Source: Lachnospiraceae bacterium (GTDB lineage Bacteria; Bacillota_A; Clostridia; Lachnospirales; Lachnospiraceae). From it: DNA of 18,120 bases. The notes under the pieces were generated by a model. That model searched no databases. It saw nothing but the letters and a program-made list of their open reading frames with translations, and had not been told where the DNA came from. Both the position numbers and the translations under genes were made by a program. Of this stretch, positions 4,372 to 17,671 are shown in pieces. Positions within the stretch are counted from its first letter, which is position 1, and each line of letters opens with the position of its first letter. The DNA lies in contig JAEEWS010000051.1 of NCBI GenBank assembly GCA_016287765.1, forward strand, positions 1 to 18,120, in the 5' to 3' direction.

Positions 4372-5184
4372 ATGTTACGAGATATTACACTGGGACAATA
4401 TTATCCCTCACAATCGGTCATACACAGACTGGACCCCAGAGTTAAGCTGACAGCCACCTTGCTGTTTATAGTATCCATGTTCCTGTTTCACACATTTGTG
4501 GGATACATTATTGCAGGGATCTGTCTGGCTACAGTCATCATCGTTTCCAGGGTTCCTTTTAAGTTTATGATGAAGGGACTTAAGACCATCTGGTTTTTGC
4601 TTATATTTACAATGTTTTTTAATATATTCCTCACTTCGGGAACACCTGTGTTTCAGTGGCAATTCATTACTGTGACCAAAGAAGGACTGACTACGGCAGC
4701 ATTTATGGGGCTTAGGCTTTTCTTCCTGATCATCGGTTCATCACTGATGACTCTTACTACCACGCCAAATCAGCTTACAAGCGGTATGGAAACAGGCTTA
4801 AGATGGATGAAGAAGATCCACGTGCCGGTGCATGAGATATCCATGATGATGTCCATTGCCTTAAGATTCATTCCGATCCTGATGGAGGAAACTGACAGGA
4901 TAATGAAGGCTCAGCAGGCAAGAGGAGCTGATTTTGAGGAGGGCAGGTTCATGGACAGGATAAAGGCTCTGGTGCCTGTTTTTGTTCCTTTGTTCGTGTC
5001 AGCCTTCAGACGTGCAAATGAGCTGGCTATGGCTATGGAAGCAAGGTGTTATCATGGAGATGAGGGCAGGACTTCCATGAAACCTTTGAGATATGCAAGA
5101 AGAGATGGTGTAGCTTATCTTCTTCTCTTGCTTTATATCGTTGTGATCGTGGCAACAGACAGGGTGGTACTTGGTTTATTATGA
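4372..5184 (+). CDS. ecfT: ECF transporter transmembrane scaffold EcfT
   Basis: Membrane scaffold linking the EcfA1/A2 ATPases to exchangeable substrate-binding S proteins. It has 270 residues. N-terminal YYPSQSVIHRLDPRVKL is diagnostic of EcfT. Hydrophobic segments follow at about residues 24-60, 65-85, 100-125 and at the C-terminus (VAYLLLLLYIVVIVATD). Of the two coupling-helix Ala-Arg-Gly motifs, the first is intact (A183-R184-G185 in QQARGADFE). The second reads Ala-Arg-Cys (224-226), a variant I recall in other Firmicutes. The ATG follows the ecfA2 stop with no gap, and the stop overlaps the truA start in ATGA, indicating translational coupling. Confidence 0.95.
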   Translation: MLRDITLGQYYPSQSVIHRLDPRVKLTATLLFIVSMFLFHTFVGYIIAGICLATVIIVSRVPFKFMMKGLKTIWFLLIFTMFFNIFLTSGTPVFQWQFITVTKEGLTTAAFMGLRLFFLIIGSSLMTLTTTPNQLTSGMETGLRWMKKIHVPVHEISMMMSIALRFIPILMEETDRIMKAQQARGADFEEGRFMDRIKALVPVFVPLFVSAFRRANELAMAMEARCYHGDEGRTSMKPLRYARRDGVAYLLLLLYIVVIVATDRVVLGLL

Positions 5185-5927
5185 AAAGGGTAATGCTGGA
5201 AGTGGCATATGACGGAACAAAATATTCCGGTTGGCAGATTCAGCAAAACAGCGAGACTGTTGCCGGTGTTCTGACTAAGGAGCTTAAAAGATTATTGGGT
5301 GAAGACATCCTTTTGATAGGCGCCAGCAGAACAGATGCCGGTGTGCATGCAATGGGAAATATATGCGTGTTCGATACAGAGTCCGAAATACCGGGAGAAA
5401 AGTTTTGTTATGCCTTAAATCACTCATTACCGGAAGATATAGTTATACAAAGATCTTGCGAAGTTCCTTCGGATTTTCATCCCAGAAAGATAAAATGCAA
5501 AAAGACCTATGAATACAGGATATGGAATGCTGACCATATTCAGCCCTTTAACAGAAAATATACCTATTTTGTATATAAAAAACTGGACATGGAAAAGATG
5601 AAGGAAGCTGCGGGTTATATCACAGGAACCCATGATTTCACGGCATTTTGTTCGATACATACGGTTGTTCCCGATCATGTGAGAACCATATATGAAGCAG
5701 AAGTGTTTAAAGAAGGCAATCTCATCACTTTCAGGATCACAGGAAACGGTTTTCTGTACAATATGGTCCGGATAATAGCCGGCACGCTGGTACAGGTGGG
5801 ACTGGGAGAAAAGACACCCGAAAGCATAAAGGATATACTGGCTTCCGAGGACAGAAGCAATGCGGGGCCTACAGCACCTGCTCAGGGACTTACGTTAATG
5901 AGGATAGATTATTTAAATGAGAATTAA
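5181..5927 (+). CDS. truA: tRNA pseudouridine(38-40) synthase TruA
   Basis: Converts uridines 38-40 of the tRNA anticodon stem to pseudouridine in the cytoplasm. It has 248 residues, normal for the family. The catalytic aspartate is D52 in the invariant motif SRTDAGVHA. Other family landmarks are the N-terminal YDGTKYSGWQ, KTYEYRIWN, FTAFCS and the C-terminal GNGFLYNMVRIIAGTLVQVG. The ATG overlaps the ecfT stop by four bases. In Bacillus truA follows ecfT and precedes rplM-rpsI; here the next gene is a surface lipoprotein whose start lies inside the last 11 bases of truA. Confidence 0.96.
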   Translation: MKRVMLEVAYDGTKYSGWQIQQNSETVAGVLTKELKRLLGEDILLIGASRTDAGVHAMGNICVFDTESEIPGEKFCYALNHSLPEDIVIQRSCEVPSDFHPRKIKCKKTYEYRIWNADHIQPFNRKYTYFVYKKLDMEKMKEAAGYITGTHDFTAFCSIHTVVPDHVRTIYEAEVFKEGNLITFRITGNGFLYNMVRIIAGTLVQVGLGEKTPESIKDILASEDRSNAGPTAPAQGLTLMRIDYLNEN

Positions 5928-7290
5928 TAGGTTAAAATACAAGATACTGCTTTCCGTTCTGGTAGTAGCAATGGCTGCAGGTTGCGTCCAAAATGAGGAA
6001 ACGGGAGAAAATGGAGTTATTGAAACACAGGTGACAGCAATAGCCACCTTTACCCCGACACCCACTTTTACCCCTGTACCTACGGAAACCCCTACGCCCA
6101 CCTTCACGCCGACACCCACCTTTACCCCTACGCCCACCTTCACACCCACTCCCACTCCGGAGCCGGCCATGACAATATCCATGGTCGGGGATATATTGAT
6201 GCACACAGGGGTGGAAAAAGACTGTTTGCAGGCTGACGGGACATATGACTATACATCGATCTTTAAAAATATGAAGGATCGTATTTCTGCCTTTGACTAT
6301 TCTTTTGTCAATCAGGAAGTTATCATCGGAGGCAGGGACTTGGGAGTAAACGGATATCCGAATTTCAATGCTTCCTTCGAACTGGCGGATGCACTTTCGG
6401 ATGCGGGTTTCGATGTGGTGCTCCACGCCACTAACCATGCACTGGACAAAGGAAAGTCCGGTATACTTAATTGCCTTTCCAACTGGAAGAGATTTTCGGG
6501 CATATATGTTCTCGGCATCTATGATAGCGAAGAAGCGGCAGAGGATCAGATAGTCTACCTTGAAAAGGACGGAATGAAGATCGCGGTTTTGAATTTTACT
6601 TATGGAACCAATGGGATCAAAGTTCCTTCCACAATGCCTTATGCAGTGGGACCTTTTCTTGTAAATGATCCGGCTTCTGAAAGCAATGCGGTAGCCGTTA
6701 AGAAAGTTACGGATCTTATTGACAGGGCAGAACAAAATGCGGATTTCACCATTGTATGTCCTCACTGGGGAACAGAGTATTCCAATAAGCAGGACTATTC
6801 CCAGAGATCCTGGAACAGGATATTTTACGAGCATGGAGTGGACCTGGTGATGGGAACTCATTCCCACGTTATCCAGCCCATTGTAGTGGTTGACGAAAAA
6901 TCCACCTATGACGTTTGGGAACTGGGCATTGGAGAGAACGGACCAAGAGAAGTGTCGAGTGATCGTATGCTTGTATATTACTCTCTCGGAAATTTTGTGA
7001 ACTGGACTGAGGAAGAGGGGGAAAAGATCCTTAAAAGAATGCTGGGTGGAATGTCCGAGGTTCTTTTGGGACGAGATGATGAAGGCAACGTTATCATAAA
7101 GGATTTTGATATAACACCTGTTGTATGTCATGTGAAGACAGGAAAAAATGCTGTTACAGTATATGCCTTATCTGATTACAATGAGGAATTGGCAGCAGAA
7201 AATGAAGTATATGTCCGGGCAGGTAAAAAGTTGACGATAGATTATTGCACAAACTTATTGGACGAAGTTTGGGGGAACCTATGGCGATGA
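5917..7290 (+). CDS. CapA-family (PGA_cap) metallophosphatase-like lipoprotein
   Basis: 457 residues. A lipoprotein signal peptide (basic N-region, hydrophobic core, lipobox AAG-C with Cys23) is followed by a Thr-Pro-rich linker at residues 45-83 and a CapA/PgsA-type calcineurin-like domain. Visible metal-site motifs in order are G91-D92, N132-x-E134, N173-H174, H283-WG and GT-H315-S-H317. CapA proteins are linked to poly-gamma-glutamate capsule synthesis or export, but no pgsB/pgsC-like genes are here, so another envelope polymer or a stand-alone phosphoesterase role is equally possible. The protein should sit on the outer face of the membrane. The ATG at 5917 overlaps the end of truA; the only upstream AGGA (5901-5904) is 12 bases away, so initiation may rely on coupling. 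The gene overlaps the next one. Confidence 0.88.
   Translation: MRINRLKYKILLSVLVVAMAAGCVQNEETGENGVIETQVTAIATFTPTPTFTPVPTETPTPTFTPTPTFTPTPTFTPTPTPEPAMTISMVGDILMHTGVEKDCLQADGTYDYTSIFKNMKDRISAFDYSFVNQEVIIGGRDLGVNGYPNFNASFELADALSDAGFDVVLHATNHALDKGKSGILNCLSNWKRFSGIYVLGIYDSEEAAEDQIVYLEKDGMKIAVLNFTYGTNGIKVPSTMPYAVGPFLVNDPASESNAVAVKKVTDLIDRAEQNADFTIVCPHWGTEYSNKQDYSQRSWNRIFYEHGVDLVMGTHSHVIQPIVVVDEKSTYDVWELGIGENGPREVSSDRMLVYYSLGNFVNWTEEEGEKILKRMLGGMSEVLLGRDDEGNVIIKDFDITPVVCHVKTGKNAVTVYALSDYNEELAAENEVYVRAGKKLTIDYCTNLLDEVWGNLWR
6049..6165 (+). repeat. Thr-Pro-Phe linker repeat in the CapA-like gene
   Basis: The stretch encoding residues 45-83 repeats an 18-base unit reading Thr-Pro-Thr-Phe-Thr-Pro, with pairs of units forming a nearly identical 36-base repeat in the second half. 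The protein segment is a stiff extended spacer between the lipid anchor and the catalytic domain. Repeats of this kind can change length by slippage. Confidence 0.8.
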
Positions 7291-8816
7291 AAAAAGATAA
7301 AGTGGTGTTCAGAATACTGTATGGCATATTGTTGGCAGCCATTATCCTTTTAACGGATTATGCGGTTGTTTTCGTACAGGCCAATATAGATGATTATGAA
7401 GCGTCTCAGCCTGACCATGTGGTAAATGAAACCATGGAAAAATTTATCGATGCGGTGAGAAATGAAAGAGCTTCGGAAGTGATCAACTATCCGGAGATCA
7501 AAGTCAGCCCTTACGACAGCGATGTGTATGAAGAATACAACAGAAAATTGGCCATGGCTCAGAACTGGACATGGAAGATCCTTTCCGGCAGTTACAGTGA
7601 AGTAAGGCAGGTCTACGGCTTTTACGGAGACGGAGAGCTGCTTGCAAAGTTTATCCTTAACTGTACCGATTCCAGGATCATAATGGAGATATTGACGGCC
7701 AATACCTGGGAGGCGGGAGAGATCTCACCTGTTCTTACACTTACAAATTACACGGAATATATTGAGATCCCTTCGAATTTTACCGCTGTTCTTAATGATC
7801 AGGCAGTATATAAAAATGCCAACGGAGTGGAATGTACGGAGAAGGAAGGCAATGTTATCTACAGCATTCCGGATATGTATAATCTTAAGGAAGTAAAGGT
7901 TTATGACCACGCGGGAAGAGAATGCAAAACCGTAAACAATAACGGATATGTTACCGCTGAGTACAATACCTACAATCTGATACTCCCTTCAAGTTATAAA
8001 TTGACGGATGAGGGATATGAAGTGGCGGGAGTGCCCGATAACGGCGGAGTGCATTATATTTATAACACGGCAGCCGAAAGCCTTACGATAAGTGACGGCT
8101 ACGGAAACAGCATCGACTACAAAAACGGAGATCAGGTGTCCACCTTCGATCTGGCGTTTACGATCCCGGATAATTTTGACATTAAGTGGCAGGGTAAGGA
8201 TCTGAGCCTTTTTGAGACCGAAAGAGTGGTTTTGAGTAAGTATGACGATTACAGACCCTTTGCTGAAATGCCGGGGCTTGTAAAATATGAGATCAAGGGC
8301 CTTTTAAAGGAGCCGGAGCTTGAGATCAGAGATAATTTAGGTGATATTGTGGAACCTGAATTTGTGGGTAATCATTTTGAGATAACGGAACAGGCTGCAT
8401 TAAGGGAAGTTCCTCAGGAAGTCCTGGTGGAAGCGGATCCCATAGGAAGCGTGGAAATGTGGTCCCTTTTCCTGTCAAACGACCTTAAGGGTACCAGACA
8501 CGGCTTTGGGATCATAAAGGAATATCTTGTTCCGGATACATATCTTTATAAAAATGCAGAAGCTTTTGCAAAGAGTATAGACATAACATTTGCTTCATCC
8601 CATGAGACACCTGTATTTATAGAAGAAGGAGTTTCGAATTATGTCAGATATTCGGATAACCTGTTCTCCTGTGATGTATATGTTAACAAGGAAATGAATG
8701 TTATAACGAATTACGAGAAGAAGATTGTAAATGATAAGATAAACAGCACATTTTTCTTCTGTTATTATGAAGGAAAGTGGAGGATCGCCGGACTTATTGC
8801 CAAAGGAGCGGAATGA
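7281..8816 (+). CDS. Membrane-anchored surface protein with internal repeats, first paralogue
   Basis: No family recognised. 511 residues: a short basic N-terminus, one membrane segment at about residues 9-32, then a large outside region. Residues 38-150 (NETMEKFIDAVRNE..., KILSGSYSEVRQVYG) look like a small alpha/beta domain. From about residue 161 a 60-70 residue unit repeats (units beginning near 161, 233 and 295), each opening with an (I/L)P-x-x-(F/Y) motif and containing a D-x-x-G turn. From L347 (LEIRDN) to the end it aligns well with the gene at 13226. GGGGGA at 7271-7276 precedes the ATGs at 7281 and 7287; the latter overlaps the previous stop as ATGA and is an equally valid start. 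Each paralogue is followed at once by a NAGPA-domain gene, suggesting that the two products act together. Confidence 0.8.
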   Translation: MAMKKDKVVFRILYGILLAAIILLTDYAVVFVQANIDDYEASQPDHVVNETMEKFIDAVRNERASEVINYPEIKVSPYDSDVYEEYNRKLAMAQNWTWKILSGSYSEVRQVYGFYGDGELLAKFILNCTDSRIIMEILTANTWEAGEISPVLTLTNYTEYIEIPSNFTAVLNDQAVYKNANGVECTEKEGNVIYSIPDMYNLKEVKVYDHAGRECKTVNNNGYVTAEYNTYNLILPSSYKLTDEGYEVAGVPDNGGVHYIYNTAAESLTISDGYGNSIDYKNGDQVSTFDLAFTIPDNFDIKWQGKDLSLFETERVVLSKYDDYRPFAEMPGLVKYEIKGLLKEPELEIRDNLGDIVEPEFVGNHFEITEQAALREVPQEVLVEADPIGSVEMWSLFLSNDLKGTRHGFGIIKEYLVPDTYLYKNAEAFAKSIDITFASSHETPVFIEEGVSNYVRYSDNLFSCDVYVNKEMNVITNYEKKIVNDKINSTFFFCYYEGKWRIAGLIAKGAE

Positions 8817-9979
8817 TCATGGAAGAGAAAAGATCTCTTAAAAACATAATATTGGTAAATGTGGGCAGAGTTTTTGCATGCATAGGCACTGTCGTCGCCG
8901 GGATATTGATGATCCTTATCCTTTCCATGAACATTATCTGTAACGGCGGATCTGCCACCGCCAGGGAAATCTTCGTTAGTACCATACTTGAGACAGGTGC
9001 TTTAAAATTTCTGGCCTCCTGGTATCTTACGGATGAAGAGATAAGCGAGATCGTTAAGAATAACTCCATGGAGGAGTTTAAAGAGGAAGTTGATACCAAT
9101 CTCATTACCGTAGTTGCCGGAAATGCAGATGCGGGAAAGAACATGGGAGCAGCCTCCGGTAAAAATCAGGAAGCTGTTACAGCCACTCATTCCGACGCTT
9201 TTGGATCCGAATTGAACCGTGAAGTGGATGAGGACGGAGACGGTGTGATCTTTTACGAAGTTGAGGGCCGAAATTTTTACGGAACCATGATGGTAGTCCT
9301 GGATCCTTCCAGGGTAACTCTGGAATCTTATTACAACGATTACAGAAAAGGTGCTCCACTGGATAAGATCGTAGCCGAATACGGCGGAGTGGGAGGAATA
9401 AACGGCGGTATCTATATACAGACAGAATTGGGCGGAAGACCTTACGGTGTGACCGTGGGGCATGGTGAGATACAGACCAACAAACCCAGAGAGCTTAATG
9501 GACTGGTACTTATAGCACTGACCGAGGATAACATCCTGATCATAGAAGATATTTCCGACCTGGATGAAGCGGGTGTGGAAAAACTGGTCAAAGATAAGAA
9601 GATTAGGGATGGCTGCAGTTTCCAGGAGGAATTCAAGGACGAGAACAATCACTTTGTATCTCTTGTGATCAACGGTAAGCCCCGTGAGCTTAACGGCAAC
9701 CTGGGAAGCGGATACAATCCAAGAACAGCCATAGGTCAAAGAGCAGACGGTGCTTTACTGCTTTTCGTTACCGACGGCAGAGGAGCTTCCGGACATCTGG
9801 GAGCATCGGCTTCGGATCTTATAGAGATAATGAGTGAATACGGCGCCGTAAATGCCGCAAATCTTGATGGAGGAAGTTCATCAAGCATGGTATATAACGG
9901 TAAATATATTATGGACAGTGTGACCTTCAGAAAGGCAAATACATCCTGGAATCTTCCAATTGCATTTGTGGTCAAATAA
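8813..9979 (+). CDS. Membrane-anchored phosphodiester glycosidase (NAGPA domain) protein, first paralogue
   Basis: 388 residues. One membrane segment (about 20-41) is followed by a helical neck (EIFVSTILETGALKF..., NNSMEEFKEEVD) and, from about residue 155, a phosphodiester glycosidase / NAGPA domain (the fold of GlcNAc-1-phosphodiester alpha-N-acetylglucosaminidase). Signature motifs are GGINGGIY, GRPYGVTVGHGEI, NPRTAIGQRADGALLLFVTDGR and N350-LDGGSSSSM. Family members cleave sugar-phosphate-diester bonds; the substrate here is unknown but would be outside the cell. The ATG at 8813 overlaps the preceding stop (ATGA), with AAAGGAG at 8802-8808; the ATG at 8819 is an alternative. Closest relative in the window is the gene at 14432, nearly identical in the TDGR-to-LDGG core. 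Confidence 0.9.
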   Translation: MIMEEKRSLKNIILVNVGRVFACIGTVVAGILMILILSMNIICNGGSATAREIFVSTILETGALKFLASWYLTDEEISEIVKNNSMEEFKEEVDTNLITVVAGNADAGKNMGAASGKNQEAVTATHSDAFGSELNREVDEDGDGVIFYEVEGRNFYGTMMVVLDPSRVTLESYYNDYRKGAPLDKIVAEYGGVGGINGGIYIQTELGGRPYGVTVGHGEIQTNKPRELNGLVLIALTEDNILIIEDISDLDEAGVEKLVKDKKIRDGCSFQEEFKDENNHFVSLVINGKPRELNGNLGSGYNPRTAIGQRADGALLLFVTDGRGASGHLGASASDLIEIMSEYGAVNAANLDGGSSSSMVYNGKYIMDSVTFRKANTSWNLPIAFVVK

Positions 9980-11476
9980 ATGCAGGAATGGGAAAGATCA
10001 ATGGGATATGGTAGATCAAACGTGAAGAAAACTTTAAAATATAAAAAGATCATAGTATTGATGGTTATGATGGTATCATTGTTAACCATGTCTTCCGGAA
10101 AAACGGAAGTAAAGGCCGAAGAATTGGAGATCACACTTGAGGATCTTCTCGAAGGAATTACCTTTGAGGTTGGACCTGACGGAACACTGATCATCGTAGA
10201 TGAGGACGAAAATGATAAGTCCCTTGATTATATGGTGTTACCTTCATATGCATTGCCGGAGGGACATGGGCTTTCTGCACTCAGGGATGATAATACGGAA
10301 ACCGCAGAAATGATACCGGAAAACTCTGTTTTGGGCATAAAGGCAGATGAAAAGATCTACGGCGTGTATGTGACCTGGGATTGTTTAAATCTTCCCGGAG
10401 AATGGAAACTGGAGTATGGTTCAGAGTCCATAGTCTGCGGAAAAGACGGTTTCCTTCGTGAATTTATAGAGATTCCGGGAGGAGCGGATACTTGCAGACT
10501 TTCCTTTACGGGACAGGCAGGGATCTGTGAACTGGAAGTGTTCGGTGAAGGAGAAATACCCGACAGGGTTCAGAGATGGGAAAAACTGGATAAGGATGCG
10601 GACATATTGATATTTGTACCTCATGAAGGTGATGAGATAGCAGATTTTGGGGCCGTCGAGGCAATATATGCAGGAAAGAGGGATCTGCGTGTCAAGGTCG
10701 TCTACATGTGCGAATATACTTCTTCGGAAGAAAGGATGAAGGAGTACGAAAAACTTGATTCTCTGTGGAAACTGGGAGTAAAGTATTATCCTGAAATGGG
10801 GAAATTCAGGAATAAGCTGCTCATGAGTTATCAAACGGCGGACAAGTTTTACGGATATGATAACGTGCTTTCTTTTGCGACTGAGAATATCAGAAGATTT
10901 AAGCCCATTGTTGTGGTGGCGCCGGATATCGAGGGTGAAAACGGCAATGCAGTACATATGCTGCTGGCTAAGGCAGTAATTGAGGCTGTTGAGATTTCAG
11001 GGGATGATAATGTGTTTTGGGATCTTGTTGAAAAATACGGTATCTGGGACGTTCCCAAAACATACCTGCACAATTATGTGGGTAACGGAGCCATTTCTCT
11101 TGATATGGGGAACGGTGTAACGGAACTGCTTGAGGATGCGATCAAGAGCAGGAAGGCAGAAAGCTGGTGCGGATCGTTGATCGAAGGTGCTGAATTTTCA
11201 GCAGACAATGCTCCATATTTTGGACTGTATCGGACCAATGTGAGGGTTGACAAGCGAAACGATATGATGGATAATGTCAGGTCTTATCAGGATCAGGAAG
11301 ATCTGGCAAAGTACAAGGCCGAACGAGATAAAATGGCCGCATATGAGAAAGAAAACAATAAATACAACGAACAGCTTATAAGGGTACAAAAAGAGGGCAA
11401 TTATTTATATGGAAAGTATCTCTTTGATGAATTGGGAACTTTTTTGGATAAAATAAGAGCTAATGAGTGGGAATAA
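9980..11476 (+). CDS. Secreted LmbE/PIG-L-like protein with altered active-site motifs
   Basis: 498 residues. A signal peptide (KKTLKYKK, then a hydrophobic stretch, likely cleavage after VKA) leads to a beta-rich domain at about 80-195 (IYGVYVTWDCLNLPGEWKLEYG, GICELEVFGEGEIPD) and an LmbE/PIG-L-like domain from about 207. LmbE/PIG-L enzymes are zinc N-deacetylases of GlcNAc conjugates. The usual (A/P)H-x-DDE motif reads PH215-E-G217-DE here, so the general-base Asp is Gly. D218 and a third-ligand candidate H326 (GENGNAVHML) remain, while a downstream HKSQ-like motif reads S-R391-K-A-E. FGLYRTNV at 414 is the family's tail motif. A coiled segment rich in Lys/Glu ends the protein. The start at 9980 abuts the previous stop; ATG at 10001 with GGGAAAG upstream is also plausible. 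It may be a pseudoenzyme or glycan-binding protein. Confidence 0.75.
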   Translation: MQEWERSMGYGRSNVKKTLKYKKIIVLMVMMVSLLTMSSGKTEVKAEELEITLEDLLEGITFEVGPDGTLIIVDEDENDKSLDYMVLPSYALPEGHGLSALRDDNTETAEMIPENSVLGIKADEKIYGVYVTWDCLNLPGEWKLEYGSESIVCGKDGFLREFIEIPGGADTCRLSFTGQAGICELEVFGEGEIPDRVQRWEKLDKDADILIFVPHEGDEIADFGAVEAIYAGKRDLRVKVVYMCEYTSSEERMKEYEKLDSLWKLGVKYYPEMGKFRNKLLMSYQTADKFYGYDNVLSFATENIRRFKPIVVVAPDIEGENGNAVHMLLAKAVIEAVEISGDDNVFWDLVEKYGIWDVPKTYLHNYVGNGAISLDMGNGVTELLEDAIKSRKAESWCGSLIEGAEFSADNAPYFGLYRTNVRVDKRNDMMDNVRSYQDQEDLAKYKAERDKMAAYEKENNKYNEQLIRVQKEGNYLYGKYLFDELGTFLDKIRANEWE

Positions 11477-11484
11477 TTTTTAGA

Positions 11485-13224
11485 ATGAAAAGAAGACGTA
11501 AAATCGCAAAAATACTAATACTTGCGTTGTTGCTGGAATTTTTTATGCGGGTTACTTACGGCATCAGTCCGGAGCCTGCCTATGCAGCGACAACATTGAC
11601 TGTTGAAAGTTATGACGATGGAAAGGCCAATCGCGGTGAACAGTTCTCGGCAGATAAATACATTGCACAGAGAATAGACTATGCGTTCAGTTTGTACGGT
11701 CCGGGGTCTTTCTTCAGCAAAAACGGAAGAGCATGTACCTGTCACCCCAATCATCCGGAGATCAGATGCCTGGAAAACAACCTGACAGACCCAAGATGTA
11801 ACTGCCTCAGATATGTTGATATAGAAGGTGAAACGGTAGACCTTAAAGCAACTCAATGTATGGGCTATGCTATGTTCATACAGCAGGTACTTTTCGGTGT
11901 AAACAACATTGCCAACCGTAACAAGTTCCAGTATATTTCCGGACCCAATCAAAAGGCTCAGGAAATTACAGGAAAAGAAGTTGAAAAGTGGTTTATTGAT
12001 CATGCCGAACTTATCCATCCCGGAACCCATCTTCGTTGTAATTACGGTAACCATTCGGTTATAATCCTTGGCGTGGATTATGACGATGGAAAGCTCTATG
12101 TTATTGACTGTAACTGGGGTATGAGATGCTATGTAAGTGAGATCCAGGTACTTTCATGGAACGGATTTGCATTAAAGTATCATTCACTTAACTGGGCATA
12201 TGTTTACAAGAACTATTACGATACCTTCTATGGTGAGATCAGTAAGGAAGATCTTTCCGTTATCAGAAAGAACACCACTCCCACACCCACCAGTACTATG
12301 GCTCCCAAGCCCACCAGCACACCCAAGCCTGCACATTACAATGCAGGATATTATATCGTAAATGTTGACAAGGGTTCTTATTTAAATCTTCGTGCCGATA
12401 CCAACACGGAATCCGACGTTGTTTCCAAGCTGGAGGTAGGATCACTTGTAGAGATATCCGACTTTGTATATAACGAAAACGGTCACCATTGGGGATACGT
12501 CTTCACGGTACCCAATGCGAGCAATCCCGGTACTCAGACGGGCGCAACCGCAACACCTGTACCGGATGATATTGAAGGACAGAGCAATAACCAGGTATGG
12601 GGTTGGCTGGCTATGGAATACGTTACCCTGAAGGCAGTTTATTCACCCACACCCACACCTACACCTCAGCCGGCATCAAAGTATGAAGCGGGTGAGTATG
12701 AGGTGGTTACGGAATTTGGACGACTTACCGTAAGAGAGTCATACACAACGAACTCGAAGATCTTGAGCATGCTTGTAAGCGGAACCAGACTTGATCTGGA
12801 GATCTTTGTCCAGGGCGGAAATGATATGGACTGGGCAAGAGTGATCGTGGAAAATGAATCGGGAAAGACCTATGGATGGGTTTCTACGGAATATCTCAAG
12901 CTGATACCTTCACCGACACCGACGCCGACAAACACGCCGACGCCGACAAACACTCCGACACCGACGCCTACACCTACCAATACACCGACGCCGACAAACA
13001 CGCCAACGCCAACGCCCACTCCAACGCCTCTTCCTGCATTGGTTAAACTTGGAAAGAGCACGAAAAACGGGTTGATGACGATAATAAACAGTGACTTTGT
13101 ACAGGCACATAAAATAGCGTTGATCCTTGTGGGGATCGCACTCGTTGCACAGTTCCCGCTTATTGGCATTTTAAAGAGAAAGAGCAGGAGAAGATTAGAA
13201 CGATTACATCATAGATTGGGATAG
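11485..13224 (+). CDS. Secreted papain-like/SH3 protein with Thr-Pro linkers and C-terminal membrane anchor
   Basis: 579 residues. A signal peptide ([18 protein letters not shown], cleavage near AYA-A) is followed by an N-terminal domain at about 30-255 with a Cys cluster (C84, C86, C95, C105, C107 plus H87 and H90) and a possible Cys-His-Asp/Asn set: C125 in QCMGYAMF, H190 in [10 protein letters not shown] and D208/N210 in IDCNWG. This resembles NlpC/P60, CHAP or papain-like folds, but no single family is certain. After a Thr-Pro linker come two bacterial SH3 domains (about 288-380 and 401-472; YLNLRAD and LTVRES motifs), a long Thr-Pro-Asn linker (about 476-516), a membrane helix (about 543-562) and a Lys/Arg-rich tail. 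An in-frame GTG at 11467, overlapping the previous gene, would add six residues; the ATG gives a cleaner signal peptide. Likely tethered at the membrane, reaching the wall. Confidence 0.8.
12910..13032 (+). repeat. Tandem Thr-Pro-Asn coding repeat in the SH3 protein
   Basis: An 18-base unit (ccgacgccgacaaacacg and close variants) recurs, encoding TPTPTN and TPTPTP blocks as a spacer between the second SH3 domain and the C-terminal membrane helix. Two units near the start and one near 12990 are almost identical at DNA level, so recent slippage or unit conversion is likely. Shorter Thr-Pro linkers occur at 12277-12330 and 12643-12672 in the same gene. Confidence 0.82.
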
Positions 13225-13225
13225 A

Positions 13226-14428
13226 ATGCAGAACAAGTTACTTAAAACTTATTTGATCACAGTGGTATTGCTGCTCCTGGCAGGGGCAGCAGTACTTGTA
13301 GTGGGATATAATTATCTGGAGCGCTACGAAAGAGAGCAGGAAAGGCTGGAGCAGGAAAGGATCGCCAATATCACACCTACTCCTACCCACACGCCCATAC
13401 CGACTCTTGAACCTGAAGAGATCGTGGAAGCAAAGTACAAATACACCATAGAAGTTCCGGAGGGCTTTACGGTTTTGGGGGATAATGTTTCCGAAAGTGA
13501 AGCCAAAGAGGGTAAAAAAGCTGTTTTAATACAAACTGATTCACCGGAATTTGAGGTGAAGATAATCGATGAATACGGATATGAAGTGGATTACAGATCC
13601 GGAAATACCCTTGAAACAAAAACCTATAATCTGATACTTCCCGATAATTTTAAGGTTACGTTAAAAGAAGCTTCCAAGACCGCTGAGGATTATATAGTAT
13701 CTGTAGAAGAAGCAGAAGAATATAGGTGGTGCTACGAGTATGCGGATATGCCTAAAATAGCTTCCTATGCATTTACCAATGCTTTAAATGCGCCGGATCT
13801 TGAGATCAGGGATAATCTTGATGCTTTGGTTACACCTTTTTGGACGGACGGCTATTTTACAATACGTGAACAGGCGGTTTTACATGAAATACCTTCGGAA
13901 GTCATTACCGAAGAGGAGATCATGGAATATGTGAAGACCTGGAGCAGTTTCATGACCGATGATCTTAAACCTGATGGGTTTGACGCTTATATTTTTACGG
14001 ATAAAAAGACCGGCAAGAGAGTACCTTATGTTAAGGGGATGGATGTTCAAGGGCTTGATTACCGTTCCAGATCTCCAAGGGATTATGGATTTAGTGTGCT
14101 GGAAGAGTATTTACTTCCCGATTCCTACAGATATAGGGTCTTGAAAGAATATGCCTATGGAAGTGACATAGGTCTGACCAGCAGGCATTTACCTGATCCG
14201 GAGTTTATCAATGAAAAGATCGATAACTTTGTAATGTATACGGATTCATTCTTCTCCATCGACAGTTCCTTTACAAAAATACTTATATTACCTACCCTTG
14301 GATACAGTAAAAGGTACGATACAACATCTGTCAGGGTCTATTTTATAAAGAATCCGGACAGTACGGGAAACAGAAAATGGCTAATGGCCGACATGATCAC
14401 CTTATCGGAAAACAGTGAGACTAAATAG
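13226..14428 (+). CDS. Membrane-anchored surface protein, second paralogue
   Basis: No named family. 400 residues: one membrane segment at about 9-28, a charged helix (YERYEREQ-like, EQERLEQERI), a short Thr-Pro linker (NITPTPTHTPIPT), a single copy of the repeat unit at about 75-136, then the conserved C-terminal region from L192 (LEIRDN). It aligns with the protein at 7281 across LEIRDN, the REQAVLHEIPSEV helix, WSSFMTDDLK, YGFSVLEEYLLPDSY and NFVMYTDSFFSIDS. It lacks the extra N-terminal domain and two of the three repeat units found there. The ATG lies one base after the preceding stop; no strong ribosome site is seen, so coupling is likely. It is followed three bases later by a NAGPA gene, repeating the earlier pairing. 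Confidence 0.8.
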   Translation: MQNKLLKTYLITVVLLLLAGAAVLVVGYNYLERYEREQERLEQERIANITPTPTHTPIPTLEPEEIVEAKYKYTIEVPEGFTVLGDNVSESEAKEGKKAVLIQTDSPEFEVKIIDEYGYEVDYRSGNTLETKTYNLILPDNFKVTLKEASKTAEDYIVSVEEAEEYRWCYEYADMPKIASYAFTNALNAPDLEIRDNLDALVTPFWTDGYFTIREQAVLHEIPSEVITEEEIMEYVKTWSSFMTDDLKPDGFDAYIFTDKKTGKRVPYVKGMDVQGLDYRSRSPRDYGFSVLEEYLLPDSYRYRVLKEYAYGSDIGLTSRHLPDPEFINEKIDNFVMYTDSFFSIDSSFTKILILPTLGYSKRYDTTSVRVYFIKNPDSTGNRKWLMADMITLSENSETK

Positions 14429-14431
14429 ATT

Positions 14432-15574
14432 ATGAGTAGAACAGCCAAAAGTAACAGCATAGGGAAAAATATTTTGGGAGCTTTCGCCTTCCTTTTGACT
14501 TTTATTGTGATCCTGCTGATAGTGGTTTATTGCCTGTGCGCAATGGCCTGCTCCGACAAGAGACCATATGCCCAAAAGACTTTTGTTACAACTTTATTGG
14601 AAACGGGTGAACTGAAATTTGTTGTTAAGCTCTTTTTAAATGAAGACAAGATAAATGAGATAGTGGACTCCAACTCCATGGAAGATCTGGAAGCAGAGGT
14701 GGATGAAAGTCTTATAACCATAAAACCCAGAGAAGTTGTGATCAGGGAAGAGGTTGTCGAAGTAAATGCAGGCAGCATCACAGATAATAAGGAGATGACC
14801 GCCAAGGAGAATAAGACTGAGGATCCGGACGGAGACGGCGTTGATGTATTTGAAGTTATCGGAAGAAGTTTTTCGGGGAAAATGATGGTGGTCTACGATC
14901 CCTCAAAGGTGTTTGTAAGCGCGAAATATCCTTTCGGTAAGACCGGGCAGACGCTGGATAAGTTTGTTGAAAAAGAAAAGGCTTTGGGCGCTATTAACGG
15001 AGGCCTTTACGAAGAATCGGGCAACAGCGGGGGAACACCTTACGGTGTTGTGGTGAGTAACGGTGAGATCTTAAGAAACAAACCACGGGAAGAAAAAGGA
15101 CTGGTGCTTATCGGATTGACTGAGGAAGGTGTACTGATAGTGGAAAATATCAGTGATATGACCGAAGGTCAGGTAAAGGCACTGGTTGAAAAAAAGAAGA
15201 TCAGAGATGCGGTATGCTTCCAGGAGGAGGCATCGGATAAAAACAATCATTTCGTTCAGCTCATTATAAACGGGGAGAAACGTGAGATGAAGGGAATGGG
15301 AAGCGGATTGAATCCGAGAACCGCAATAGGACAAAGAGCTGACGGTGCATTGCTTTTGCTGGTTACTGACGGCAGAGGCGCTTCGGGACATCTCGGAGCA
15401 TCGGCATCGGATCTGATCGACGTTATGTCGGAATACGGCGCAGTTAATGCCGCTAATCTGGACGGAGGAAGCTCGTCCTGTATGTATTATAACGGGGAGT
15501 ATCTTATGAACAGTGTAACCTTTTATTACGCAAACAGTTCATGGAATCTTCCTTTGGCATGGGTTGTGAAATAA
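14432..15574 (+). CDS. Membrane-anchored phosphodiester glycosidase (NAGPA domain) protein, second paralogue
   Basis: 380 residues, same architecture as the gene at 8813: membrane helix (about 12-39), helical neck with the shared FVTTLLETGELKF and NSMEDLEAEVDESLITI, a variable charged spacer, then the NAGPA domain with GAINGGLY, GTPYGVVVSNGEI, NPRTAIGQRADGALLLLVTDGR and N342-LDGGSSSCM. Motifs thought to form the active site are intact, so both copies are probably active. The neck and spacer differ much more than the core, suggesting divergence in how each copy is positioned or in its partner rather than in chemistry. It is the last gene of the surface block; no clear intrinsic terminator follows before the sigma factor gene. 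Confidence 0.9.
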   Translation: MSRTAKSNSIGKNILGAFAFLLTFIVILLIVVYCLCAMACSDKRPYAQKTFVTTLLETGELKFVVKLFLNEDKINEIVDSNSMEDLEAEVDESLITIKPREVVIREEVVEVNAGSITDNKEMTAKENKTEDPDGDGVDVFEVIGRSFSGKMMVVYDPSKVFVSAKYPFGKTGQTLDKFVEKEKALGAINGGLYEESGNSGGTPYGVVVSNGEILRNKPREEKGLVLIGLTEEGVLIVENISDMTEGQVKALVEKKKIRDAVCFQEEASDKNNHFVQLIINGEKREMKGMGSGLNPRTAIGQRADGALLLLVTDGRGASGHLGASASDLIDVMSEYGAVNAANLDGGSSSCMYYNGEYLMNSVTFYYANSSWNLPLAWVVK

Positions 15575-15579
15575 TTTTT

Positions 15580-15648
15580 ATCACGTTTAGGATTTTTTTA
15601 CGAAATATTTCGTTGTTAGTAGAAACCAAAAGAAATATTTAACGTGAT
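15580..15648 (+). promoter_or_regulatory. Inverted-repeat-rich regulatory region before the sigma factor gene
   Basis: The 85-100 base gap holds a perfect 14-base palindrome (ACGAAATATTTCGT, 15600-15613) nested between the arms of a wider 8-base inverted repeat (ATCACGTT 15580-15587 and AACGTGAT 15641-15648). Neither is followed by a T-run on the plus strand, so termination is not indicated. The palindrome has the size of a typical dimeric regulator site; no regulator can be named. Confidence 0.4.
15622..15646 (+). promoter_or_regulatory. Candidate ECF-type promoter of the sigma/anti-sigma operon
   Basis: GAAAC at 15622-15626, 16 bases, then CGTG at 15643-15646 resembles the ECF promoter pattern (GAAAC-N16-CGTA/C) known from Bacillus sigma factors and suits autoregulation. 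It would place the transcript start near 15653-15655, just before the ATG at 15669. An overlapping weak sigma-A-like pair (TTGTTA 15613-15618, TATTTA 15636-15641) is an alternative. Confidence 0.4.
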
Positions 15649-15668
15649 TTAGGGTAAGAGTGGAAAAA

Positions 15669-16229
15669 ATGGAAGATGCTAAGATAGTGCAGCTTTACTT
15701 TGACAGGAATGAAGCTGCGCTGAAGGAAACACAAACGAAGTACGGAAAGTACCTGCTTAAGATAGCCAATAATATCCTTTACAATAATGAGGATTCGGAA
15801 GAGTGTGTCAATGACACTTATCTGTCAGCATGGAATGCCATGCCGCCTCATAAACCGGATGTATTGTCACTCTTTTTGGGCAAACTGACCAGAGGTCATG
15901 CTATCGACGTATACAGAAAAAATCACGCCGGGAAAAGGATACCTTCGGAATATACCACTTCTATTGATGAACTGGAAGAGTGTATTCCCGGTGGTTCGGA
16001 CGTGGAAGCAAATCTCGAGGCGAAGCGCCTGGGAGAAGTAATAAGTGCATTCTTGAGAGAACAGGATGATGAGGCCAGAAACCTTTTTGTGGGACGTTAT
16101 TTCTATGCCGATTCACTTAAAGATGTTGCAAGTTATTACGGTATGACTGATACAAAAGCTAAAATGATACTTTTCAGAACGCGTCAGAGACTTAAGGAAT
16201 ATTTGGAAACGGAGGGTTTCACCGTTTAA
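15669..16229 (+). CDS. ECF-type RNA polymerase sigma factor
   Basis: 186 residues. Region 2 spans about residues 15-80, with the core motif NNEDSEECVNDTYLSAWNAMPP and FLGKLTRGHAIDVYRKN. Region 4 is at about 120-180 (ARNLFVGRYFYADSLKDVASYYGMTDTKAKMILFRTRQRLKEYL), a helix-turn-helix for -35 recognition. This MEDAKIV... subgroup is widespread in Lachnospiraceae. The start is ambiguous: GTG at 15660 has AGGG 5 bases upstream and adds three residues, while ATG at 15669 matches the family N-terminus and fits the candidate ECF promoter. It is followed after one base by a membrane anti-sigma candidate. Its regulon is unknown; the adjacent surface genes are an obvious but untested target. Confidence 0.92.
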   Translation: MEDAKIVQLYFDRNEAALKETQTKYGKYLLKIANNILYNNEDSEECVNDTYLSAWNAMPPHKPDVLSLFLGKLTRGHAIDVYRKNHAGKRIPSEYTTSIDELEECIPGGSDVEANLEAKRLGEVISAFLREQDDEARNLFVGRYFYADSLKDVASYYGMTDTKAKMILFRTRQRLKEYLETEGFTV

Positions 16230-16230
16230 T

Positions 16231-17049
16231 ATGGATAAAGAGAAAATATCGGATGCATTGTCCTATCTGGATGATGATATAATTGAAGAAACCGAAAAGT
16301 TGAGACAGCGGAGTGCGAGGAGCCGGAGTTCAAAACTGGCTGAATTTACACGGAGACCCTGGTTTAAAACTGCGCTTGCGGCAGCGGCTGTTATTGTTAT
16401 CCTTATCGGTGGCGGAGCTGTAGCCGGAAATATGCATTTGAAAAAAAAGGAAAGCAGCGCGGATACTAATATGATACAGAAGAGCGCTTTGATGAAGGAC
16501 ATGGAATCAAGGGCGAATGAAGAAACTGACAGCTCCGGTTTCAGTGATTCCTTGGATCCGCAGGAAAGTAAGTACCTTAATCAGTCGGCAACAAGTTATC
16601 CGGCAACAGTAAGTGATAATAGCGGTATAAGCAAGGGAGGTTTTGGCGAATCAAACTCCTTGGTAGATTATGACCTTAGTTATATTTCAACAACATGTGT
16701 CGTTTCACGTAATGATGAAAGTGTAAGCGGAAGTTATAGCATCGACCTTTCGGAAAAAGCAGATTATTATCTGGAAACCGGTGAAGCGTGGAGTCTGGAG
16801 ATCTTGAAGGACGATAGCTGGGAATACATCGGCCCCAAGTCAGAGCAAACATGGAACCAGGCTGTATATGGTATAGGAAAGTTCGCAGGAACCGGTCATC
16901 TGGAAAGAACTTTTAATCTGAATGCTTACGGTACTCTTAAAAAGGGCAAATACCGGATCGCTAAGAATATATATGTCTTTAAGACGGTAGATGGCAAGGA
17001 AAATGTTTATAACGATACTGTTTATTGTGAGTTTGAACTAAATGATTAA
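16231..17049 (+). CDS. Membrane anti-sigma factor with extracellular Ig-like domain (putative)
   Basis: 272 residues. A short cytoplasmic N-terminus (ISDALSYLDDDIIEETEKLRQ) that probably binds the sigma factor is followed by a membrane helix at about 44-67 (WFKTALAAAAVIVILIGGGAVAG), a low-complexity Ser-rich stretch (70-145), and a C-terminal beta-rich domain at about 155-272 (TGEAWSLEILKDDSWEYIG, LKKGKYRIAKNI) that resembles bacterial Ig-like domains found in many Lachnospiraceae anti-sigma candidates. No zinc-binding HxxxCxxC anti-sigma motif is visible. The anti-sigma role is inferred from one-base spacing to the sigma gene and topology, not from a proven motif. The outside domain could sense envelope state. 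Confidence 0.78.
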   Translation: MDKEKISDALSYLDDDIIEETEKLRQRSARSRSSKLAEFTRRPWFKTALAAAAVIVILIGGGAVAGNMHLKKKESSADTNMIQKSALMKDMESRANEETDSSGFSDSLDPQESKYLNQSATSYPATVSDNSGISKGGFGESNSLVDYDLSYISTTCVVSRNDESVSGSYSIDLSEKADYYLETGEAWSLEILKDDSWEYIGPKSEQTWNQAVYGIGKFAGTGHLERTFNLNAYGTLKKGKYRIAKNIYVFKTVDGKENVYNDTVYCEFELND

Positions 17050-17129: not shown

Positions 17130-17161
17130 AGAAACACTGTTGACAGGCAGTGTTTCTTTTT
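17130..17161 (+). terminator. Intrinsic terminator of the upstream operon, overlapping the rplM promoter
   Basis: A perfect 10-bp stem (AGAAACACTG 17130-17139 with CAGTGTTTCT 17148-17157), an 8-base loop and five T at 17157-17161 form a likely terminator for the sigma/anti-sigma transcript. The stem is relatively AT-rich, so efficiency may be moderate. Its loop holds the -35 box of the next promoter. Confidence 0.7.
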
Positions 17162-17168
17162 ATATAAT
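17140..17168 (+). promoter_or_regulatory. Perfect consensus sigma-A promoter for rplM-rpsI
   Basis: TTGACA at 17140-17145, a 17-base spacer and TATAAT at 17163-17168 match the housekeeping consensus at all 12 positions. Transcription should start near 17175, giving a leader of about 60 bases before rplM. The -35 box is in the loop and the spacer contains the right arm of the terminator hairpin. Confidence 0.93.
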
Positions 17169-17236: not shown

Positions 17237-17671
17237 ATGAAGACTTATGTTGCAAGCGCCGCTAACGTACAGAGAAAATGGTATGTTATCGATGCAGAGG
17301 GACAGACACTTGGCCGTCTTGCATCCGCAGTTGCGCAGATATTAAAAGGTAAGAATAAGCCCGAGTATACACCTTTCCTTGATCTCGGTGACAATGTTAT
17401 CATCATCAATGCTGCAAAGATCAAAGTTACCGGAAAGAAGCTTGATCAGAAGGTATACTTCTCACATTCCAAGTATGCAGGCGGCACTACTGAGTTAACC
17501 CTCAGAGAAATGCTCGCTAAGGACCCTTGCGAAGTAGTAAAGATCGCAGTTAAGGGCATGCTTCCTCATGGACCTCTCGGAAGAGGCATGATCGAGAAGC
17601 TTCACGTATACGCAGGACCTGAGCACAACAATCAGGCTCAGAAGCCCGAAGTATTAGAGATCAAGTTTTAA
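17237..17671 (+). CDS. rplM: 50S ribosomal protein L13
   Basis: L13, an early-assembling large-subunit protein. It has 144 residues, typical length. Family landmarks are [17 protein letters not shown] near the N-terminus, the [20 protein letters not shown] block, [22 protein letters not shown] and a C-terminal [14 protein letters not shown] at 17224-17229 is 7 bases before the ATG. It is expressed from its own perfect consensus promoter, unlike the Bacillus arrangement, where it follows truA directly. rpsI follows after 18 bases. Confidence 0.98.

Follow-up and report, generated by a model that had tools for sequence, protein, structure and literature searches.

A truA-rplM gene block of a rumen Lachnospiraceae lineage as a possible offshoot of a NAGPA-G2 surface-glycosylation module

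The closest described systems, CsbB-GtcA-YfhO and GtrB-GtrA-GtrX, each consist of a GT2 synthase, a GtrA flippase and a third extracytoplasmic component, which in the available part of a 2021 review is a polytopic GT-C enzyme, other protein families being allowed as the transferring component (PMC8035078). The accessible text of a 2026 Actinoplanes paper proposes a transmembrane GT2 protein outside the GT-C class for the transfer step (PMC13390465), and a Lactobacillus johnsonii GtrA-GtrB pair has, according to the portion available, no further glycosyltransferase nearby (PMC7117936). Here we describe a block of nine genes (5917-17049) in 18,120 nucleotides of a Lachnospiraceae bacterium (contig JAEEWS010000051.1, assembly GCA_016287765.1), a stretch hereafter called the window. 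The block contains twice a pair formed by a membrane protein that we name G2 and a NAGPA phosphodiester glycosidase, and its relatives elsewhere recur beside a GT2-GtrA protein. In contrast to the polytopic GT-C of the systems above, what recurs with the synthase and flippase here is a single-transmembrane or fused NAGPA, mostly with G2. The module recurs in a minority of Lachnospiraceae. From the gene content and its relatives we give about even odds that the block is an expanded offshoot, fixed in its genus, of a module for surface glycosylation in which NAGPA acts on a flipped polyprenyl-phosphate sugar. The core module points to a scarcely known means of decorating the cell surface, and the link connects this truA-linked block, from a rumen lineage, with sugar decoration of the surface.

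The two pairs are composed of the following genes.
7287..8816, + strand: g2, the G2 membrane protein, with an N-terminal transmembrane helix, a beta-rich middle and a C-terminal NTF2-like domain
8813..9979, + strand: g3, membrane-anchored NAGPA phosphodiester glycosidase (predicted; PF09992, 102 bits, cut-off 25)
13226..14428, + strand: g6, a shorter paralogue of g2
14432..15574, + strand: g7, NAGPA, a paralogue of g3 (53%; PF09992, 111 bits, cut-off 25)

Both g3 and g7 belong to the NAGPA family by profile and by the conserved motifs (NPRTAIG, DGRG and NLDGG in g3), and hydrolysis of a sugar-1-phosphodiester is predicted for them; PDB chains 6pki, 6pkg and others matched g7. The same domain is found in animal NAGPA, the mannose-6-phosphate uncovering enzyme, and in bacterial DUF2233 proteins. 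The transmembrane helix of g2 was recognised by eye and in a structure model, which has one such helix, beta-rich domains and the C-terminal NTF2-like domain. A word-limited search of 5.8 billion proteins returned 37 relatives of g2 at an E-value of 1e-3. The G2 architecture gave TcaA/YvbJ envelope proteins as a lead; at an E-value of 0.05, 39 G2 members hit 10 families, none of them a TcaA family. Over about 240 residues, g2 of the nearest genome, G001, gave 31% with window g6, and g6 of G001 gave 30% with window g2.

Outside the genus, G2 accompanies NAGPA closely. Searching 397 genomes of the family with g7 detected NAGPA in 34 at an E-value of 1e-20 and at 45 places outside the genus; with one place (G068:C3:98-376) subtracted, G2 was a neighbour at all 44 and GT2-GtrA at 24. 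The count of 44 out of 44 is partly trained because the final G2 profile had been iterated on hits from the counted loci. Before this iteration, the profile found G2 at 26/26 NAGPA loci, GT2-GtrA being present at 16/26. At 19 of 20 loci outside the profile training, the closest training sequence was 22-66% identical; locus L072 was not given to the profile, yet a database copy of it was in the training. An order-wide search (392 genomes) added 18 NAGPA places, with G2 at 9, GT2-GtrA at 4 and neither at 9. At most four candidates were scored per genome in both searches, and the counts are lower bounds. The NAGPA-G2 core did not show the outcome that, according to the preliminary description of this DNA, would speak against one system, namely the same genes scattered independently in relatives.

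The second recurrent partner, GT2-GtrA, is predicted to be a polyprenyl-phosphate-sugar synthase joined to a flippase; PF00535 and PF04138 exceeded their cut-offs in two NAGPA-linked relatives. A search centred on the glycosyltransferase covered 150 family genomes and gave 44 GT2-GtrA places, spread over 42 of these genomes (at one place, in G051, GT2 and GtrA are two adjacent genes). NAGPA adjoins 20 of the 44 and lies in the same open frame at two. These fusions, L157 (908 residues) and L160 (663-666 residues), both carry the Pfam domains GT2, GtrA and NAGPA, all over the cut-offs except the GT2 domain of L157 (21.7 versus 23.3). In a protein database, where the 7998 candidates sharing most words with L160 were scored and 2803 proteins found, 116 of the 120 homologues listed carry all three domains; the fusion is therefore real and no assembly accident. 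The named three-domain homologues come from Lachnospiraceae (including Butyrivibrio), Solobacterium, Mogibacterium and Anaerolineaceae.

A neighbour with at least eight transmembrane segments was present at 1/22 NAGPA-bearing versus 7/22 NAGPA-free GT2-GtrA places (Fisher p 0.046), as judged by a crude hydropathy count over two genes on each side, which a distant GT-C gene could escape. This hints that NAGPA and a polytopic transferase substitute for each other at such places. The 8 multi-transmembrane neighbours among 44 places are possibly the usual transferase; calling them GT-C is a guess because Pfam gives DUF2142, DUF6020, DUF6077, a PAS fold or nothing. The module would work like a multi-component transmembrane glycosylation system, and we do not file it as a member because a polytopic third component stands at only that one NAGPA-bearing place. 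The window itself holds no GT2-GtrA; six of the seven genus genomes carry it in trans, one copy being partial at a contig end (G004). Neither NAGPA nor G2 stood beside these unlinked genes in the six loci read, from five genomes.

The ancestry of the block NAGPAs was examined in a midpoint-rooted tree of 88 NAGPA domains. They fall in a clade of 30 rows with 100/100 support, whose members from outside the genus all have G2 (16/16) and mostly GT2-GtrA as well (12/16). The NAGPAs that have GT2-GtrA and are fused or lack G2 (12 rows) form a separate clade, also with 100/100 support. Because the block NAGPAs nest among those with G2 and GT2-GtrA, the simplest origin for the block is a GT2-GtrA-NAGPA-G2 module, the glycosyltransferase presumably having been left behind.

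A polyprenyl-phosphate sugar is a sugar-1-phosphodiester, the type of bond that NAGPA cleaves. In the mechanism that we propose, the GT2 enzyme would make this lipid-linked sugar inside the cell and the GtrA domain would flip it; outside, the membrane-anchored NAGPA would break the phosphodiester bond between sugar and lipid and hand the sugar on to a cell-wall polymer, replacing the usual GT-C transferase, and the NTF2-fold G2 may help as scaffold or acceptor-binder. In the genus of the window, GT2-GtrA stays in trans, and two NAGPA-G2 pairs would have come together with CapA, PIG-L, the cysteine hydrolase and an extracytoplasmic function (ECF) sigma pair in a packed run behind truA. We favour transfer over hydrolysis because a plain hydrolase on one chain with the synthase would, we infer, run a futile, sugar-wasting cycle. 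The preliminary description had spoken of a phosphodiester-linked surface polymer. This wording is too loose: the bond may belong to a lipid-carried sugar and not to the polymer, since what recurs beside NAGPA is a polyprenyl-phosphate-sugar synthase and flippase.

A further step, to which we give somewhat less than an even chance, would make NAGPA a third component of a new kind: a phosphodiester glycosidase taking the flipped lipid sugar as donor, in place of GT-C; synthase, flippase and transferase would then be united in one polypeptide in several Bacillota lineages and in Anaerolineaceae, and the block would be a version with the transfer arm duplicated, split from the synthase and set beside its own ECF sigma factor. 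We found no settled role in the literature for the bacterial NAGPA proteins of such loci. Linking NAGPA and GT2-GtrA gives both a testable function, a lipid-linked sugar used outside the cell by an enzyme of glycosidase fold, and, if true, provides a glycosylation enzyme on a single chain that would lend itself to biochemical work. Among the open-access matches listed, no paper connected NAGPA with either GtrA or polyprenyl-phosphate sugars, most subscription journals lying outside that collection, and the available parts of PMC12419801 and PMC9862828 do not make the NAGPA-GtrA link.

The limits of the block are set by the following features.
5181..5927, + strand: truA, left boundary, its final codons overlapping the start of g1
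17237..17671, + strand: rplM, right boundary
17140..17168, + strand: sigma-A promoter of rplM-rpsI, TTGACA-17-TATAAT (12/12 consensus matches), outside the block

The window reads rpsD-rpoA-rplQ-ecfA1-ecfA2-ecfT-truA, the nine block genes and rplM-rpsI, and the block fills the interval from truA to rplM, where the preliminary description had placed it. That description counted eight genes, six of them for envelope proteins. We found nine, that is, seven genes for extracytoplasmic proteins (g1-g7, each with a signal sequence or membrane anchor read by eye) and an ECF sigma/anti-sigma pair; the seven include the duplicated pair g6-g7. The near absence of gaps between the envelope genes is borne out, intergenic distances from truA through g7 being -11 to +8 bases, and the sigma gene starts 85 bases past g7. 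The absence of att-like repeats and a base composition like that of the surroundings were also upheld: the boundary stretches have no common 10-base word and no repeats were found there, and the GC content at third codon positions is 0.40-0.475 in the block versus 0.42-0.49 in the flanks. A recent mobile element was ruled out by these missing repeats and the unshifted composition. A tRNA search found none, and Rfam gave no match at the gathering score. The TTGACA and TATAAT hexamers before rplM are kept in seven aligned rows.

The block occupies the same place in 7/7 genus genomes drawn, with truA-rplM distances of 9.8-12.9 kb, in agreement with the earlier suggestion of an old, lineage-fixed insertion. 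For the remainder of the family, a truA-rplM pair was counted where both genes shared a contig and strand and lay no more than 20 kb apart, as read from two whole-genome search lists, of which the truA list is incomplete at its end. Among 57 genomes outside the genus with both genes listed, 37 had such a pair; the gap was below 0.6 kb in 31 and held 1.0-10 kb of unrelated genes in 6. The other 20 had truA and rplM on different contigs or far apart (at least G012 and G042). In other families of the order, the gap was below 0.6 kb in 10/17 pairs. The comparison of this interval, proposed earlier, showed a short junction in most of the family genomes with such a pair. The junction is not unique to this block as an insertion site; the unrelated genes in 6/37 indicate that it tolerates inserts. 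The insertion itself is an ordinary lineage-specific one at a permissive junction, and the interest lies in the module of the core. By eye, the fillers at L044, L045, L046 and L048 comprise one set of genes that is carboxylase/oxoprolinase-like, one for ABC efflux and a MATE-like transporter. In another family (G084 and G102, loci L172 and L173), a NAGPA gene without G2 or GT2-GtrA directly follows rplM-rpsI, and looks like a second, unrelated NAGPA near the same ribosomal genes.

Three further envelope genes complete the block.
5917..7290, + strand: g1, CapA/PGA_cap calcineurin-like lipoprotein with a Thr-Pro linker (PF09587, 207 bits, cut-off 27)
9980..11476, + strand: g4, PIG-L-like secreted protein of class B (PF02585, 18.6 bits, below the cut-off of 28.2)
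11485..13224, + strand: g5, NlpC/P60- or papain-like cysteine hydrolase with SH3_3 domains, a Thr-Pro linker and a C-terminal transmembrane segment (start taken at ATG 11485)

The lipobox of g1, VAMAAGC, was read by eye, and a weak Metallophos match stays under its cut-off. The PGA_cap domain is common to g1 and CapA of poly-gamma-glutamate capsule systems; unlike in those systems, no capsule-synthase partner was recognised by eye among the window genes, and relatives of g1 are fused to PIG-L in two genomes. At locus L095 (9425-11485), a BrkB-type membrane domain is fused to PGA_cap. In g5, Q123, C124, H189 and N209 (alignment numbering) are invariant across 13 rows, and the fold matches SH3-NlpC/P60 enzymes weakly, from a model with a predicted local distance difference test score of 59. 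The g5 and CapA alignments did not include G001; the alignment displays covered the window, G003, G006, G007 and six family loci. In the nearest relative (L030, 11488-13245, G001:C174), a goat-rumen Lachnospiraceae metagenome-assembled genome and the sole find of a genome-collection scan with g4, an in-frame stop breaks g5; the window g5 is open.

The accessory genes vary inside the genus. The G001 block is organised like that of the window. Two tandem PIG-L genes are present in G002, G003 and G004; G005 also has two, CapA being missing beside truA. In G006 and G007, CapA and PIG-L are fused (820-840 residues), another CapA-like gene is present and the G2-NAGPA pair occurs once. The PIG-L proteins divide into two classes: A keeps HxDDE and GHxxH intact in 6/6 rows (four rows and the two fusions), and B shows HxGDE and GNxxH instead in 6/6 rows, window g4 among them. 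The class A paralogue of G003 passes the PF02585 cut-off (31.1 bits), and so do the class B relatives of G003 (31.7), G002 (31.2) and G005 (29.2 bits). Class B has lost an Asp and a His whose functions we take to be those of MshB, to which the alignment is weak; g4 is probably a pseudoenzyme. The active copy seems to have been lost and the degenerate one retained in the lineage of the window and G001, since both blocks carry class B only and no other PIG-L match in G001 (80% complete) is over threshold outside the block.

The proposal that all these genes form one system stands in part. It is supported by the NAGPA-G2 core and by the fusion of CapA with PIG-L in two genomes, and is weaker for the accessory genes, judged by their distribution outside the genus: PIG-L lies within four genes of NAGPA at 4/62 places (L086, L174, L175 and L181, motifs intact in 4/4), a CapA-like gene is labelled near NAGPA at one locus (L196), and the matches of g5 among the 397 family genomes cover the SH3/linker part only, its N-terminal part being matched in genus members only (three candidates scored per genome, counts being lower bounds).

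The regulatory end of the block contains three features.
15622..15651, + strand: ECF-type promoter GAAACC-N15-CGTG, upstream of the sigma gene, its core invariant in 8/8 genus sequences
15660..16229, + strand: ECF sigma factor (TIGR02937, 59.7 bits, cut-off 42.9)
16231..17049, + strand: membrane anti-sigma factor with an extracytoplasmic Big_14 domain (PF20251, 47.2 bits, cut-off 27)

Both assignments, made already in the preliminary description, are over their cut-offs, and the match of the sigma region together with a promoter motif of its own places the predicted pair among the ECF factors. A wider pattern of the motif occurs once per genome, always upstream of the sigma gene (7/7), and its reversed control gave zero. 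Such a distribution would be expected of an autoregulated ECF factor; the block sigma factor would then recognise the motif, whatever the pair may sense. No copy precedes the seven envelope genes, the only exact one in the window being at 15622; we have thus rejected the possibility that the sigma factor drives these genes from a copy of its own promoter, and it is more likely that they ride on the ecfA-truA transcription unit.

A still looser pattern gave 25 hits in the seven genomes versus 4 for the reversed one. Six of the 25 are the promoter of the sigma gene itself (that of G001 with two mismatches). Other sites (loci L118, L114, L110 and L121) precede a TVP38-like gene in G001, of which a 120-residue piece of the product matched no Pfam family, and, in G003, G002 and G004, genes whose secreted products resemble one another and look SH3-like by eye. 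These sites could belong to another ECF factor. Paralogous ECF sigma/anti-sigma pairs in the genus adjoin MBOAT and DHHW genes of the polymer-acetylating type (L095; MBOAT confirmed in L099), in keeping with a role in surface polymer modification. At L101, a paralogous pair lies beside MBOAT/DHHW-type genes by sequence likeness only.

Several observations weigh against a glycosylating NAGPA module. The g7-like NAGPA is a minority trait, detected in at least 34 of the 397 family genomes; 20 of its 44 family places have no GT2-GtrA neighbour, 22 of 44 GT2-GtrA places have no NAGPA, and of the 9 of 18 additional order places with neither G2 nor GT2-GtrA, 8 are in other families. GT2-GtrA is unlinked in the genus of the window, and the nearest genome, G001, gives weak partial hits only. 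The exclusion of GT-C depends on crude hydropathy, a p value just below 0.05 and neighbours named as DUFs, a PAS fold or nothing. The missing ECF motif before the envelope genes and the purely genomic basis of the reading count on the same side. Anomeric specificity may mismatch as well, because GT2 synthases of this type usually yield beta-linked polyprenyl-phosphate sugars, whereas animal NAGPA acts on alpha-linked GlcNAc-1-phosphate, in the GlcNAc-1-phosphodiester of a glycoprotein; here the gene family adjoins the synthase and flippase of a lipid sugar. Other settings of NAGPA domains include predicted phage depolymerases, as stated in the accessible part of PMC9862828.

These points leave room for other explanations, of which the least improbable, still rather unlikely, is that NAGPA, CapA and PIG-L hydrolyse or remodel a finished phosphodiester surface polymer, teichoic-acid-like or of sugar-1-phosphate, in line with the preliminary description, the GT2-GtrA link reflecting synthesis of the same polymer. 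The extracytoplasmic look of all seven envelope products, the PGA_cap domain of CapA with its sub-cut-off Metallophos match, and the release of phosphodiester-linked sugars ascribed to NAGPA in the available part of a lipocone survey (PMC12419801) are consistent with turnover, which leaves unexplained both the fusion of NAGPA to a synthase and flippase and the rarity of PIG-L and CapA near NAGPA outside the genus. We consider it improbable that NAGPA rescues carrier lipid, freeing undecaprenyl phosphate from flipped sugars under envelope stress. The model for such a function is provided by UshA and UpsH of Bacillus subtilis, studied by Roney and Rudner, which, in the portions available, act on undecaprenyl-phosphate or -diphosphate sugars under the control of the ECF factor SigM and free the carrier lipid, UshA releasing undecaprenyl phosphate from its sugar-linked form (PMC11898649, PMC11081497). 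The ECF pair of the block, with its conserved promoter, would then be SigM-like, and the looser motif before the TVP38-like gene of G001 points the same way; the envelope genes have no preceding ECF motif, and a pure hydrolase fused to the synthase of its own substrate would be wasteful. The folds differ too, UshA resembling alpha/beta hydrolases and UpsH metallophosphoesterases, unlike NAGPA (PMC11898649, available part), and the words NAGPA and glycosidase do not occur in the main text of that paper.

Least probable is that the permissive junction merely gathered surface genes that do not work together. The unrelated genes at 6/37 junctions, the restriction of the N-terminal part of g5 to the genus and the lack of CapA beside truA in G005 would suit such a cargo; the neighbourhood of NAGPA and G2 at 44/44 places elsewhere, the retention of the block in all seven genus genomes drawn, its tight packing in the window and the CapA-PIG-L fusions speak against it.

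Apart from the block, locus L068 (5389-9196, G007:C134) contains another sigma/anti-sigma pair, the second of that genome; a g5-like gene accompanies it at the contig end, and a transglutaminase-fold protein is encoded upstream.

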